From the NCBI GenBank assembly GCA_036480375.1, contig JAZGGI010000028.1:62001-126000 (forward strand): DNA of 64,000 nt, read 5' to 3'. Each line of letters begins with the position of its first letter. Position 1 is the stretch's first letter. Position numbers and translations under genes: made by a program. Below, one piece after another: positions 41,045 through 46,111 of this stretch. This stretch comes from Candidatus Zixiibacteriota bacterium. Its GTDB lineage: Bacteria > Zixibacteria > MSB-5A5 > GN15 > JAAZOE01. The notes under the pieces were generated by a model that was not told where the DNA came from, made no database searches, and saw only the letters and a program-made list of their open reading frames with translations.

Positions 41045-41779
41045 ATGATCGAGATTCCAACAGAATTAATCGAGCGGCTAAAAAAATCAATCAAGGTCGT
41101 CGTCTCGACCGGAGCCGGAGTCTCGGCCGAGTCGGGCGTCCCGACGTTCCGAGGCAAAGACGGCATCTGGAATAAGATGAGCGCCGAGGAACTTGCCTCA
41201 GTCGATGGATTCATGTCCAATCCCAATCTCGTCTGGGAATGGTATCAATATCGCCGCAATCTGATGGGCGAAGTCGAACCTAACGGGGGTCATTATGCCA
41301 TTGCCGAATTTGAAAATATCTTCGATGATTTTTCATTGATAACCCAAAATGTCGATGACCTGCATCGCCGGGCCGGGTCGTCTAAAATCTATGAACTGCA
41401 CGGCAACATCACCCGTAATAAATGTCTCGATTGCCAAAAAATGTATCATGATGAGATTAACCTCGATGTCGAGCTGCCTAAGTGTCAATGTGGCGGGTTT
41501 ATTCGTCCCGATGTCGTCTGGTTCGGCGAGATGCTGCCGCAGGACGTTTTGCGCTCGGCGTTCGAGGCGGCGGAAGCGGCCGAGGTTTTCTTTTCGGTCG
41601 GGACTTCGACCCTGGTTCAACCGGCGGCGTCATTGCCGTTTATCGCCAGGCGTTCGGGAGCGCTTGTTGTTGAAGTCAATATCGAGCCGACCGGTTTGAC
41701 TGAAATCGCCGATTTGTTCCTGCGCGGCCCATCTGGTGAAGTTCTACCGGAGATAGTCAGTCAGATTACAAATCAGTAG
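41045..41779 (+). CDS. cobB: NAD-dependent protein deacylase, sirtuin (class III-like)
   Basis: 244 residues. NAD site GAGVSAESGVPTFRG (23-37), QNVD (101-104), catalytic His119 in ELHGN, and zinc cysteines 127, 130, 147 and 149 (CLDC, CQC). The helix EWYQYRRNLM supplies Tyr67-x-x-Arg70, matching the Y-x-x-R pair that lets E. coli CobB and SIRT5 accept succinyl-lysine, so desuccinylation is plausible. AGGAAG lies 6 nt before the ATG. The last 97 bp plus flank are duplicated at 42974-43077. Confidence 0.93.
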   Translation: MIEIPTELIERLKKSIKVVVSTGAGVSAESGVPTFRGKDGIWNKMSAEELASVDGFMSNPNLVWEWYQYRRNLMGEVEPNGGHYAIAEFENIFDDFSLITQNVDDLHRRAGSSKIYELHGNITRNKCLDCQKMYHDEINLDVELPKCQCGGFIRPDVVWFGEMLPQDVLRSAFEAAEAAEVFFSVGTSTLVQPAASLPFIARRSGALVVEVNIEPTGLTEIADLFLRGPSGEVLPEIVSQITNQ

Positions 41780-41786
41780 TTGTATG
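41683..41786 (+). repeat. 104-bp duplication of the sirtuin 3' end, copy 1 (within cobB)
   Basis: Matches 42974-43077 over exactly 104 bp, from CGAGCCRACCGG through the stop to TTRTATG, with about 9-10 substitutions. The two copies bracket 1.2 kb holding the DUF1295-like gene. Confidence 0.9.
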
Positions 41787-41787
41787 A

Positions 41788-41949
41788 CTCCCGGAAAACG
41801 GGTTAAACGGAATAGATGTTGAAGCCTTGGTATCATTAGTTAAAGATCAGGAAATAGTCGGAACGCTTACGTATCCTAATGGGAAAGAGACGCAGATAGT
41901 GTACGAGGTTGTTCGTCAAAGAGAGAATCAGAAAGGAAATGGACAATAG
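41788..41949 (+). pseudogene. 5'-truncated coding fragment
   Basis: An open frame of 53 codons without a plausible start reads LPENGLNGIDVEALVSLVKD... TLTYPNGKETQIVYEVVRQ and ends at TAG 41949. Regular protein-like composition suggests the tail of a gene brought in with the adjacent acquired DNA. Family not recognised. From 41950 to 42183 I see nothing else. Confidence 0.45.
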
Positions 41950-42183: not shown

Positions 42184-42870
42184 ATGGCATTCAAAGATGA
42201 ACACGCACCATCGACACTCATGAAACTCTTACTATCTGCAGGCATTCTGATGGGAACTCTGATCCCGGCACTGCTGATGTCCGGGCATGGAAATTTTCTG
42301 ATTCAACTTTTGAAACTCCAAAAGCTTGAGGGAAACACCTATCGGCAGATACTCATTGTGTCTTGTTCGCTAATCTATCTATTCCGGTTTGTGATATGCA
42401 TGTTTGTTTTCTTCAAACGTAAAATAGGCTGGATCGAGGGCATTCTGGTTTCATTCCTGTTCTTCATGATGTTTTACCTCTTCAATACTGCCGCGGGAAG
42501 TCATTTCGAACCGATTGGATTGATCGATATTGCCGGTATCTTCCTGTACGTGACAGGCTCCTATATCAACACACTCGCGGACTATCAACGGTATGCCTGG
42601 AAGAGAAATACCGAAAACAAAGGACGGCTCTATACTGAAGGACTGTTTAAGTACTCTATGCACATAAACTACTTTGGGGACAGCATCATGTACATCGGAT
42701 TGGCAATGATTACCCTAGAGTATGTATGTCTCTTTGTATCTATTATCATCATACTGAATTTTGTTTTCCTGCAGATTCCAATGCTGGACAAGCACCTCAG
42801 CAAGAAGTACCCAGACGAGTTTGGCGAGTTCGCGAAACAGACTAAGAAGTTCATTCCATTTGTCTATTGA
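42184..42870 (+). CDS. DUF1295 / steroid 5-alpha-reductase-like membrane protein
   Basis: 228 residues with about six membrane spans. The C-terminal half has the isoprenylcysteine-methyltransferase/DUF1295 pattern: DYQRYAWKRN, GLFKYSMHINYFGDSI (normally GLWxYSRHPNYFGE) and the end LSKKYPDEFGEFAKQTKKFIPFVY. Relatives are reductases or methyltransferases acting on lipids. The substrate here is unknown. GGAG lies 8 nt before the ATG and a good terminator follows. It lies between two copies of the sirtuin 3' end and so probably arrived by transfer. Confidence 0.8.
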   Translation: MAFKDEHAPSTLMKLLLSAGILMGTLIPALLMSGHGNFLIQLLKLQKLEGNTYRQILIVSCSLIYLFRFVICMFVFFKRKIGWIEGILVSFLFFMMFYLFNTAAGSHFEPIGLIDIAGIFLYVTGSYINTLADYQRYAWKRNTENKGRLYTEGLFKYSMHINYFGDSIMYIGLAMITLEYVCLFVSIIIILNFVFLQIPMLDKHLSKKYPDEFGEFAKQTKKFIPFVY

Positions 42871-42973: not shown

Positions 42974-43077
42974 CGAGCCAACCGGTTTGACTGAAATCGC
43001 CAATTTGTTTCTGCGCGGCCCATCGGGTGAGATTCTGCCGGAGATAGTTAGTCAGATTACAAATCAGTAGTTATATG
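42974..43077 (+). pseudogene. Duplicate 3' end of the sirtuin gene
   Basis: The final 32 codons of a cobB-like gene (EPTGLTEIANLFLRGPSG... QITNQ, stop at 43070) with no 5' part. Compared with intact cobB there are two amino-acid changes, D to N and V to I, and the remaining changes are silent. It therefore diverged under selection in another genome or lineage before it came to lie here. Confidence 0.85.
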
Positions 43078-43103
43078 CCTCCTTTTGTTGCGCATATAAA
43101 AAG

Positions 43104-43191
43104 TTATCCACATCATTTTTCATAAAATTCCTTGTATATTTATGTGGCTAATCCTGTTACAGCGAATTGGGTTCGTTTTGTCCTTTTTCGT
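43104..43191. repeat. Dispersed ~88-bp intergenic repeat, right copy
   Basis: Second copy of 9387-9475, from TTATCCACAT to TCCTTTTTCGT. Part of the 43078-43583 gap, which contains no gene. Confidence 0.75.
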
Positions 43192-43338
43192 TATTGTCTT
43201 TTTGGCTCCTTTTATTTTGTGGCATATATGATGCCTCTCCCGGTTAGAGATATACTTATTTTCAATTAAAGGGTAGGCGTAAGAATCAATGGTGAATTTG
43301 TTGGGGAATTGAAAATATTTTGTGGGAAAAGAGTTGTA

Positions 43339-43583: not shown

Positions 43584-43736
43584 ATGCGCAAGCCAGGATT
43601 TTATGTCGGTATTGATGTTGGAGCCAAAGAATTGTGGGCCGCGACGAATGGGCGTAAACCGCGGCCTTTCGTAGGTACCCAATTCGTTCCTAAAACGATA
43701 TCACGTTATTCGGGGTTTTATATAGGAGTATATTGA
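43584..43736 (+). pseudogene. IS110-family transposase, N-terminal fragment
   Basis: A 50-codon frame behind GGAGG begins MRKPGFYVGIDVGAKELWAA, the start of the DEDD RuvC-like domain of IS110 transposases (YVGIDVSK...; first catalytic Asp in GIDV). After about 30 codons the similarity stops and the frame ends in VGTQFVPKTISRYSGFYIGVY. The remaining 300 or so residues, including the serine domain, are missing. It is a dead remnant. Confidence 0.65.
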
Positions 43737-43809: not shown

Positions 43810-43830
43810 GCGGAGGAGGTAGGATTCGAA
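43810..43830. repeat. att-like 21-bp copy of the tRNA-Ser 3' end
   Basis: Identical to 46026-46046 inside tRNA-Ser (acceptor stem and T-arm side). Marks the distal end of the islet. Confidence 0.85.
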
Positions 43831-43864
43831 GAAGGCCATTTCGTCTAACTTCTTGGCAGTCCAT

Positions 43865-43979
43865 GAATTACGCGTAATTCACTGGGTCAACATAGGTTAA
43901 GTTACTTCAAGTTGCGTCAAGTTAGTGCAAGTTACTAGGCACTTGCGTGAAGTTCCCGGTTAGAAAATGGTTAGAAAAT
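43865..43979. repeat. Palindrome and phased tandem repeats next to the att copy
   Basis: Perfect palindrome GAATTACGCGTAATTC (43865-43880). Then four exactly adjacent 10-mers of form AAGTTNNNNN (43899-43938: ACTTC, GCGTC, AGTGC, ACTAG after AAGTT). Then two adjacent 11-mers GGTTAGAAAAT (43958-43979). Repeats with helical-turn spacing beside an att core look like recombinase arm sites or a regulator's operators. Confidence 0.75.
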
Positions 43980-44253
43980 TCGGCGCAATCAGGGGCGTTC
44001 AAATCAGTGTCGGTACTGGCCTTCTTTTCATTGCAACAGCAACTTAACTTTGTTCATTCAAGATAATAGCGGCGATCAGAAGATTATGATTCTTTATGAC
44101 TTGTGAAATAGAAATGTATCTCTTAGATTTCAACCGAATTTGTCTGAATGCTTTTGAAGAAATGTAGTGTGCTACGATAGCCGCTTATGTTTTATTGGGA
44201 ATTAATAGGCGGATAGGCAATAACCCAATTATTGCAATGAAAGGTTCTTCATC

Positions 44254-45945
44254 ATGAAATTCCTTCCTTCCCAAATTCTCTATTTTACTCGAAGCAGAAC
44301 AACTAAGAGGAACTTCAAACTTCTATTCAAGTTCCTTTTGGCGTTGACAGTGCTGGTGGTGATATACAGCATTTTGTTTCATTTCATAATGCTTCTTGAA
44401 GAAAAGGAGTTTAGCTGGATTACAGGTTTCTATTGGACGCTCACTGTGATGTCCACGCTTGGTTTCGGTGATATCACCTTTGCGAGTGATTTAGGCAAGG
44501 CTTTTTCGATGCTTGTACTCATGTCCGGCATTATTTTTCTTCTCGTCATGTTGCCCTTTACCTTCATTCAATTTTTTTATGCTCCATGGCTTGAAGCCCA
44601 ATCAAGGGCTAGAACTCCACGGGAATTGCCGGAAAGCACAACAGGACATGTGATACTGACAAACTATGATCCCATAACCATAAACCTCGTAGGAAAATTA
44701 AAGAAATATAATTATGAATATGCTATTATCGTCACTGATTTGAAACGTGCGTTAGAACTTTATGATTTAAATTTCAAGGTTGTCGTAGGAGACCTGGGTG
44801 ACCCGGAAACATATAAACGTCTCCGCGTACAAAATGCCGCCATGCTGGTTGCCAACAACGATGATATGGTCAACACAAATATATCCTTTACGGTCAGGGA
44901 GATATCTAAAGAAGTACCCATCATTACTAATGCAGATGCGGATGATTCCATTGATATTCTGCAGCTTGCCGGCAGCACTTATGTCTTTCAGTTTATGAAG
45001 ATGCTTGGTGAATCCCTGGCGCGAAGAACACTCGGAATGAGTATGGGGGCAAATGTTATCGGAAGATTCGATAAACTTCTCATCGCCGAAGCATCTGCCA
45101 TGCGAACGCCGCTTGAGGGAAAAACTCTCATTGAAAGCAATCTGCGAGAAAATACTGGCGTAACAGTCGTCGGGCTTTGGGAGAGAGGCCGATTCAAAAT
45201 TCCACGACCACAGACTCGAATCAATTCCACAACTGTGCTCGTGCTTGCCGGTTCGGCCGAACAGCTCAAAAAATATGACGAGGTCTTTTCGGTTTACCGT
45301 TCTTATCACACCACTGGTGCCCCTGTTCTCATACTGGGTGGTGGTCGTGTCGGACAGGCAGCAGCACAGATACTGGAAGATCGAAAAATTGTTTATAAAG
45401 TTGTCGAGAAGAATCCGACACTCATTCAAAATAATAACTACATTCAAGGAAATGCTGCCGATCTTGATACCTTGAGTCGGGCCGGAATACGGGAAGCTCC
45501 ATCTGTCATTATTACCACTCATGATGACTCCATGAATATTTATCTCACTATCTATTGCCGTAAACTGCGATCCGATATTCAGATTGTCAGCAGGGCAAAT
45601 CTGGACCGAAATATTTCCAAACTGCACAGTGCTGGAGCGGACCTAGTCATGTCACATGCTTCCATGGGAGCAAATACCATAATTAATCTTCTAAAACCCA
45701 ATAAAATACTGATGGTTGCAGAGGGACTAAATGTCTTCCGTGCGTTGGTACACTCGTCCCTTGTGGGCAAATCTCTTGCTGAAAGTCATATCCGTAAACA
45801 AACGGGCTGCAGCGTGATAGCTATTGGCAGGGAAAATGAATTGAATATCAATCCCGAACCCTCGATTCTTCTTGGGAAACATGATGAAATGGTCTTGATT
45901 GGGACGAGCGATGCGGAAAAACGTCTTATGGACATCTATCAATAA
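44254..45945 (+). CDS. K+ channel with two RCK (TrkA-N/TrkA-C) domains
   Basis: 563 residues. Two membrane helices surround a pore loop with selectivity filter TLGFGD (68-73) in place of the usual TVGYGD. Residues 130-340 form a first RCK unit whose nucleotide motif is degenerate (HVILTNYDPI lacks GxGxxG). Residues 355-560 form a second with a canonical GGGRVG (about 362). So one half probably keeps nucleotide or ligand binding while the other is structural. AAAGG precedes the ATG by 9 nt. It is the only gene in the tRNA-Ser islet and was probably acquired. Confidence 0.88.
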   Translation: MKFLPSQILYFTRSRTTKRNFKLLFKFLLALTVLVVIYSILFHFIMLLEEKEFSWITGFYWTLTVMSTLGFGDITFASDLGKAFSMLVLMSGIIFLLVMLPFTFIQFFYAPWLEAQSRARTPRELPESTTGHVILTNYDPITINLVGKLKKYNYEYAIIVTDLKRALELYDLNFKVVVGDLGDPETYKRLRVQNAAMLVANNDDMVNTNISFTVREISKEVPIITNADADDSIDILQLAGSTYVFQFMKMLGESLARRTLGMSMGANVIGRFDKLLIAEASAMRTPLEGKTLIESNLRENTGVTVVGLWERGRFKIPRPQTRINSTTVLVLAGSAEQLKKYDEVFSVYRSYHTTGAPVLILGGGRVGQAAAQILEDRKIVYKVVEKNPTLIQNNNYIQGNAADLDTLSRAGIREAPSVIITTHDDSMNIYLTIYCRKLRSDIQIVSRANLDRNISKLHSAGADLVMSHASMGANTIINLLKPNKILMVAEGLNVFRALVHSSLVGKSLAESHIRKQTGCSVIAIGRENELNINPEPSILLGKHDEMVLIGTSDAEKRLMDIYQ

Positions 45946-46026
45946 CCGGGGAAACCCTGCCTTACTGAGAAGTGATTTCTCGTAAGCTATTACCCTGTCG
46001 CACGTTATGCCGTTAGAAAATCAAAG

Positions 46027-46111
46027 CGGAGGAGGTAGGATTCGAACCCACGGTACCTTGCGGTACAACGGTTTTCAAGACCGCCGCTTTCGACCTCTCA
46101 GCCACTCCTCC
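46027..46111 (-). tRNA. tRNA-Ser (anticodon TGA)
   Basis: Minus strand: acceptor GGAGGAG pairs with CTCCTCC, discriminator G, D-arm GTGGCTGAGAGGTCGAAAGC, anticodon loop CTTGAAA (TGA), long variable arm GTACCGCAAGGTAC typical of class II tRNAs, and T-arm GTGGGTTCGAATCCTAC. CCA is not encoded. It reads UCA and other UCN codons. Its 3' end is duplicated at 43810-43830. Confidence 0.96.

Follow-up and report, generated by a model that had tools for sequence, protein, structure and literature searches.

How does a segment of 2.2 kb that carries a single gene and no recombinase come to lie between two copies of the 3′ end of a tRNA gene? The question is raised by positions 43810 to 46046 of the 64-kb stretch of DNA analyzed here (the window), from a Candidatus Zixiibacteriota genome (the host genome, G000). 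A first-pass annotation had described the segment as an islet bounded by a 21-bp duplication of the tRNA-Ser 3′ end, with phased repeats and a palindrome between the copies, and had proposed that it either borrows an integrase or is the stripped remnant of an element.

Attachment cores and putative arms of the islet

ARAGORN placed an intact tRNA-Ser(TGA) gene at 46026 to 46111 on the minus strand. The 21 nt of its 3′ end (46026 to 46046, the proximal attachment core; GCGGAGGAGGTAGGATTCGAA on the plus strand) are repeated exactly on the plus strand at 43810 to 43830, the distal core, within a 27-nt match of 93% identity. The longest match to the tRNA elsewhere in the window was 21 nt, whereas 60 Markov-1 controls averaged 11.1 and did not exceed 13. 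The duplication is therefore as first reported, and it is far above chance. Direct repeats of the attL/attR type are thus present at the tRNA 3′ end in the correct orientation, and since the intact gene lies at one end of the islet and the displaced 3′ fragment at the other, the arrangement fits integration into a tRNA gene.

Next to the distal core, within the islet, lies a block of ∼150 bp (43831 to 43980, plus strand), the putative distal attachment arm, which ends in two 11-bp GTTAGAAAAT repeats. Its components are a palindrome, AAGTT repeats phased at 10 bp, and the unit GGTTAGAAAAT in two copies. The phased repeats occupy 43896 to 43955 (plus strand), with Tandem Repeats Finder (TRF) locating a period of 10 at 43899 to 43935, and their phasing is alike in other copies of the block. 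The 11-bp unit GGTTAGAAAAT occurs twice at 43958 to 43979 (plus strand) as an arm-type pair, a motif also present upstream of the start codons of one integrase clade; the arm role of the repeats is assigned from their position and from that clade. In the palindrome TGAATTACGCGTAATTCA (43864 to 43881), pairing was symmetric in 74% of cells, compared with 19 to 42% when the sequence was slid, and covariation was weak. A conserved hairpin function was considered and rejected, nothing beyond the symmetry supporting one. The phased repeats and palindrome of the first-pass annotation were thus recovered. For the short spacer that follows (43981 to 44030), no relatives were found among the loci compared.

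The proximal end is shorter. A third GTTAGAAAAT copy (46012 to 46021, plus strand) abuts the core, in the position held by the innermost arm site of integrase-bearing elements. Across the window GTTAGAAAAT occurs only three times, all within the islet and on one strand, the other two copies lying in the distal block. The sequence from 45954 to 46011 has weak similarity to the proximal end of a related islet in genome G025 (shuffle z score of 5.2 with the arm and 2.8 without it) and may be a remnant of a proximal element end. Two features of integrase-bearing elements, the outer pair of proximal arms and the conserved TGTCAATAACTTATTG stretch, are absent from the islet. From its sequence, the islet is best read as cargo between two cores, with the distal arm complete and the proximal arm reduced. 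The missing outer arm pair favors impaired mobility, and because the TGTCAATAACTTATTG stretch is missing as well, the islet may no longer serve as a substrate.

Other features of interest lie in the left flank. The 3′ end of sir2 and a few bases downstream are duplicated (41683 to 41791 and 42974 to 43082; 109 bp, ∼91% identical) around a DUF1295 gene (42184 to 42870), a second small islet-like structure that adjoins the first and is without a recombinase. Approximately 100 bp are apparently common, in inverted orientation, to ∼43070 to 43240 and G000:C8:7935-8080, and possibly represent a dispersed repeat of the genome. A short ORF start at 43584 to 43736 (MRKPGFYVGIDVGAKELW...) resembles by eye the 5′ fragment of an IS110-type transposase and had no Pfam match.

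A K+ channel gene as sole cargo

No integrase or transfer gene was identified inside the islet. The only ORF between the cores, and the single one with a database match (44254 to 45945, plus strand), encodes a K+ channel of 563 amino acids with two RCK (TrkA_N/TrkA_C) units; its Pfam matches comprise Ion_trans_2, two TrkA_N, and two TrkA_C stretches, in agreement with the original description of one channel gene and no recombinase. The protein is a nearly full-length relative of PDB entries 4gx0/4gx5 (E value, 2e-120 over residues 9 to 557), presumably GsuK, the RCK K+ channel of Geobacter sulfurreducens. The cargo gene differs from GsuK in lying on a tRNA islet and in being common to separate phyla.

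The cargo unit (44031 to 45953, plus strand) stops about 70 nt short of the proximal core and also occurs at unrelated loci of other genomes. Homology covers 44031 to 44124 and 44192 to 45915 in genome G002 and 44190 to 45953 in G032, and in Desulfobacterales it is confined to the ORF and about 15 bp. Across Zixibacteria and Desulfobacterales it spans the ORF and about 15 to 200 bp, with unrelated flanks. Several genera of Zixibacteria, as well as Desulfobacterales from a different phylum, have relatives sharing 80 to 91% amino acid identity (L141-L171); many of these lie at contig ends, where individual copies are possibly mis-binned. The neighboring AI-2E gene is only 68 to 82% identical within the family. 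On these comparisons, the K+ gene appears to be a gene-sized unit transferred between phyla (about 90% identity in Desulfobacterales).

This behavior raises the alternative that the K+ gene arrived later and independently, as a self-moving, gene-sized unit that inserted into what was left of an old tRNA element, in which case the att repeats would be uninformative on how the gene traveled. The narrow extent of the shared homology is consistent with such an arrival, as is the position of the gene in G001, G002, G032, and G036, where it is not beside tRNA-Ser(TGA). However, in G092, from another family, an ortholog of 73% identity lies beside tRNA-Ser(TGA), between a partial arm block and a second block with a proximal end. 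Because the gene is found in that setting twice, its association with the cassette is recurrent, although it travels by other routes too. A separate arrival is judged possible but somewhat improbable.

Related cassettes, islands, and integrases

A search of 133 genomes of the class with the arm block, the core being left out of the query, identified a match of 83% identity in G025 (C49:22330-22471; E value, 1.2e-34) and lower ones in G031, G051, G024, G066, and others. The block adjoins tRNA-Ser-like 3′ ends in G025, G051, G031, G024, G066, G012, and further genomes, and the order of core followed by distal block is the same as at 43810 in G025, G024, G051, and others. Nearly every copy inspected was preceded by a tRNA-Ser-type 3′ end even though the query held no core, and duplication of a tRNA fragment therefore fails as an explanation. 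Plain duplication with no integrative element does have precedents, since ∼90-bp duplications of tRNA-Ser 3′ ends exist, for example at the tRNA-Ser(CGA) gene of the host. Nevertheless, a conserved arm block follows the duplicated end here. Copies of it also accompany tRNA-derived ends elsewhere, and in G024 one marks the distal boundary of an island that has an integrase and lies at the same tRNA gene; plain duplication is considered highly improbable. Looking for the repeat block beside att copies in other genomes was a check proposed in the first-pass annotation, which had also named simple tandem duplication as the arrangement that would count against it; the recurrence of the att and arm module with different cargo excludes that scenario.

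The ∼90-bp units begin with a tRNA-Ser-like 3′ end followed by a variant ...ACATATAGAAC, and were observed at L036 8373-8464 (G000:C33), L126 59-240, L127, and L027; one of this type directly adjoins the tRNA-Ser(CGA) gene of the host. In G051, five dispersed copies of the arm block were identified (82 to 90% identity; L113-L117). None had a detected tRNA-Ser beside it or an integrase less than 100 kb away, and no second end was located for them.

Integrase-less relatives of the islet were also identified. At tRNA-Ser(TGA) in G025 lies a 3.8-kb islet that lacks an integrase; it shares the distal block but carries two unrelated genes, one of which has adhesin-like repeats. Its proximal end differs from the integrase-bearing type and matches that of G092 (77% over 86 bp; E value, 8e-10) across families, which hints at a nonautonomous lineage with these two genomes as its clear members. 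The proximal end in the window may belong to the same type, a weak assignment.

In G024, an integrase gene (C5:151073-152206) lies directly at the tRNA 3′ end, with GTTAGAAATTCGTTAGAAA overlapping or abutting its start codon, and a block with core lies 56.5 kb from tRNA-Ser(TGA), at C5:207336-207502. The island has GTTAGAAA arms at both ends and shares with the islet the distal block and the innermost proximal arm but not the outer proximal arm pair. Inside the island, at 186919, there is another block, whose core is degenerate, so that the region is probably composite. Within C5:151-207 kb (L183-L185), genes adjacent to the integrase resemble by eye a DNA methyltransferase and a Vsr-like endonuclease, which suggests a defense region. 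In G046, a block with a tRNA-Ser-type core is located ∼51 kb from tRNA-Ser(CGA) on one contig, and an integrase of the same clade lies beside the tRNA.

All tested integrases with GTTAGAAA pairs at the start codon form one clade (support, 100/100), whereas most other tested integrases with a recognizable pair carry TGTGCCA-type pairs. Members of the GTTAGAAA-arm clade neighbor tRNA-Ser(TGA), (CGA), and (GGA) genes and in one case tRNA-Gln, and in most of them the left end runs from an arm pair through the conserved TGTCAATAACTTATTG stretch to a single GTTAGAAAAT 4 to 6 nt from the core. In G001, G036, G057, G026, G041, and G034, frames resembling by eye the C termini of serine recombinases end at tRNA-Ser(TGA), apparently a hot spot shared by two recombinase families.

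The islet (43810 to 46046) has no integrase of its own beside the attachment site, the nearest matching one being on contig C8 of the host genome. This is the one intact integrase of the GTTAGAAA clade in the host (G000:C8:57480-58616), on a contig other than that of the islet; along its entire length it is 62% identical to the G024 enzyme, and the catalytic motifs R, HxLRH, GH, and Y are present. Its neighbors are a hydrolase gene and type IV pilus genes. An arm pair lies upstream, and no island and no recognizable tRNA-Ser core or distal block were found around it; thus, it is a solitary integrase with matching arms. Judging from sequence, the enzyme could act on the islet in trans. No relatives of it were found in viral contigs. 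A candidate att repeat for it at C8:7935 was rejected, as it lies in sequence resembling a dispersed repeat.

Arm pairs are widespread. The host genome gave 15 matches to the arm-pair pattern, compared with 0 for a reversed-pattern control, and 75 of the 133 genomes of the class carry such pairs. A contig scan for an att copy, a gap, and an arm pair gave no match. Most of the host arm-pair matches come from a second family of cassettes, in which the core derives from tRNA-Met and the blocks differ from those of the tRNA-Ser family. Contig C44 has six of them within 12.6 kb, separated by cargo; others lie near contig ends, and a tRNA-Met is located on C18. These integrase-less cassettes with GTTAGAAA arm pairs occur in tandem at G000 C44:38900-51962 (L206, L207) and were also observed on C18, C15, C8, and C34; their cargo measures 1.4 to 8 kb, a decayed integrase fragment lies at C44:38923-39066, and such sites form the ends of several contigs. 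Attributing the tRNA-Met arrays to the C8 integrase was considered and not adopted, because the blocks differ and the integrases beside such arms in G001 and G081 fall outside the C8 clade.

A further proposal is that of a split system in Zixibacteria, in which the fixed, solitary C8 integrase would act in trans on single-gene, integrase-less cassettes that make up a nonautonomous lineage; this is regarded as rather unlikely. If true, the cassettes would have a conserved proximal end of their own, as G025 and G092 do, while sharing the distal arm block, the logic would be integron-like, with tRNA-derived cores and arm-type sites replacing attC, and the dispersed blocks of G051 and the tandem tRNA-Met array of the host would be further products.

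Origin of the islet and its known counterparts

The reading preferred here, with a probability of roughly 0.8, is that the islet arose by site-specific integration, as a CIME-like, two-ended, integrase-less cassette of a family of tRNA-Ser-targeting tyrosine-integrase islands found in Ca. Zixiibacteriota. The att duplication, the conserved arm module, the matching integrase clade with its arms, and the lack of an integrase in the islet are the observations from which we infer that the GTTAGAAA-arm clade made the insertion. An integrase of this clade, which would bind the arms on the evidence of their position and of the clade itself, would have inserted a circular element by recombination at the tRNA-Ser(TGA) 3′ end; the tRNA-end copy of the element would have restored the gene, leaving the displaced 21-nt end to mark the far boundary. 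The K+ channel segment appears to fill the place held in relatives by the integrase and the outer arm pair, so that the innermost proximal arm site and the core would be all that is left of that end. Any present movement would need an integrase in trans, most plausibly the C8 enzyme if it can still act on the islet. Both options of the first-pass annotation, a borrowed integrase and a stripped remnant, have an integrase-less site-specific insertion in common, and this shared part is borne out by the recurrence of the block beside tRNA-Ser-derived att copies.

The empty site that the annotation had hoped to see in relatives did not appear in clean form, because the 3′ side of the tRNA carries a different insertion in each genome compared. 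Genomes of the same family keep synteny on the 5′ side (SprT, purL, and partly AI-2E), and the left flank of the window has no counterpart beside their tRNA; sir2 is present in these genomes but on other contigs.

Whether the islet still moves is more evenly balanced. There is about an even chance that a full island at this site lost its integrase and outer proximal arms by internal deletion and that nothing moves what is left. The islet does lack the outer arm pair as well as the leader region of the integrase, and other decayed pieces are common: the same tRNA adjoins a broken integrase in G038, and cores have degenerated in both G024 and G092. On the other hand, the islet retains both cores intact together with the distal arm and the innermost proximal arm, an intact matching integrase is present in the genome, and the proximal end common to the integrase-less G025 and G092 elements hints that nonautonomous forms spread as such.

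Under the preferred reading of site-specific integration, an uncultured phylum carries a tRNA-Ser island family in which sequence comparison can match the ends, the integrase clade, and the arm sites, and an orphan 2.2-kb islet becomes a testable substrate with a named candidate helper gene. As this one-gene element carries a K+ channel exchanged between phyla at about 90% identity, it suggests that potassium or osmotic traits spread through sediment communities one gene at a time.

Some known types of element were considered and set aside. The islet has no repressor, primase, or packaging gene, only the K+ channel, and so is not a phage satellite of the PICI type. Its core is a tRNA-Ser 3′ end with arm repeats, and its palindrome is without firm covariation, which do not fit an integron gene cassette. 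With no integrase of its own at the attachment site, it is not an autonomous tyrosine-integrase island.

Closer counterparts are found among elements that lack an integrase. CIMEs are integrase-less elements that retain attL and attR (PMC5704250), and the islet resembles them in having both sites at the 3′ end of a tRNA, in lacking integrase and transfer genes, and in being arranged like integrase-bearing relatives; it differs in that its matching integrase is solitary and elsewhere rather than in an adjacent element, so that any mobilization would be in trans. Of the ssrA islands of Dehalococcoides, 15 lack an integration module and have been proposed to be cis-mobilizable (PMC3146451). They too are bounded by copies of an RNA-gene 3′ end but use a serine recombinase and tmRNA, whereas the islet family uses tyrosine integrases, tRNA-Ser, and a conserved arm block. 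In the additive flexible genomic islands of Alteromonas and Methylophilaceae, cassettes are added at a tRNA with repeated 3′ ends between them, and the portions of these accounts consulted, unlike the islet, mention no arm-type sites or separate integrase (PMC4119200, PMC10872708). Tycheposons have been described as large elements that carry cargo, lie at tRNA genes, and have a tyrosine recombinase (PMC10872708); the islet shares with them the tRNA-associated cargo and the link to a tyrosine recombinase and is set apart from that description by its one gene and lack of a recombinase. The islet thus works like CIMEs, ssrA islands, and additive islands and is of a kind already known, a borrowed-integrase or stripped genomic islet, of which it is a well-supported new example distinguished by a solitary matching integrase elsewhere in the genome.
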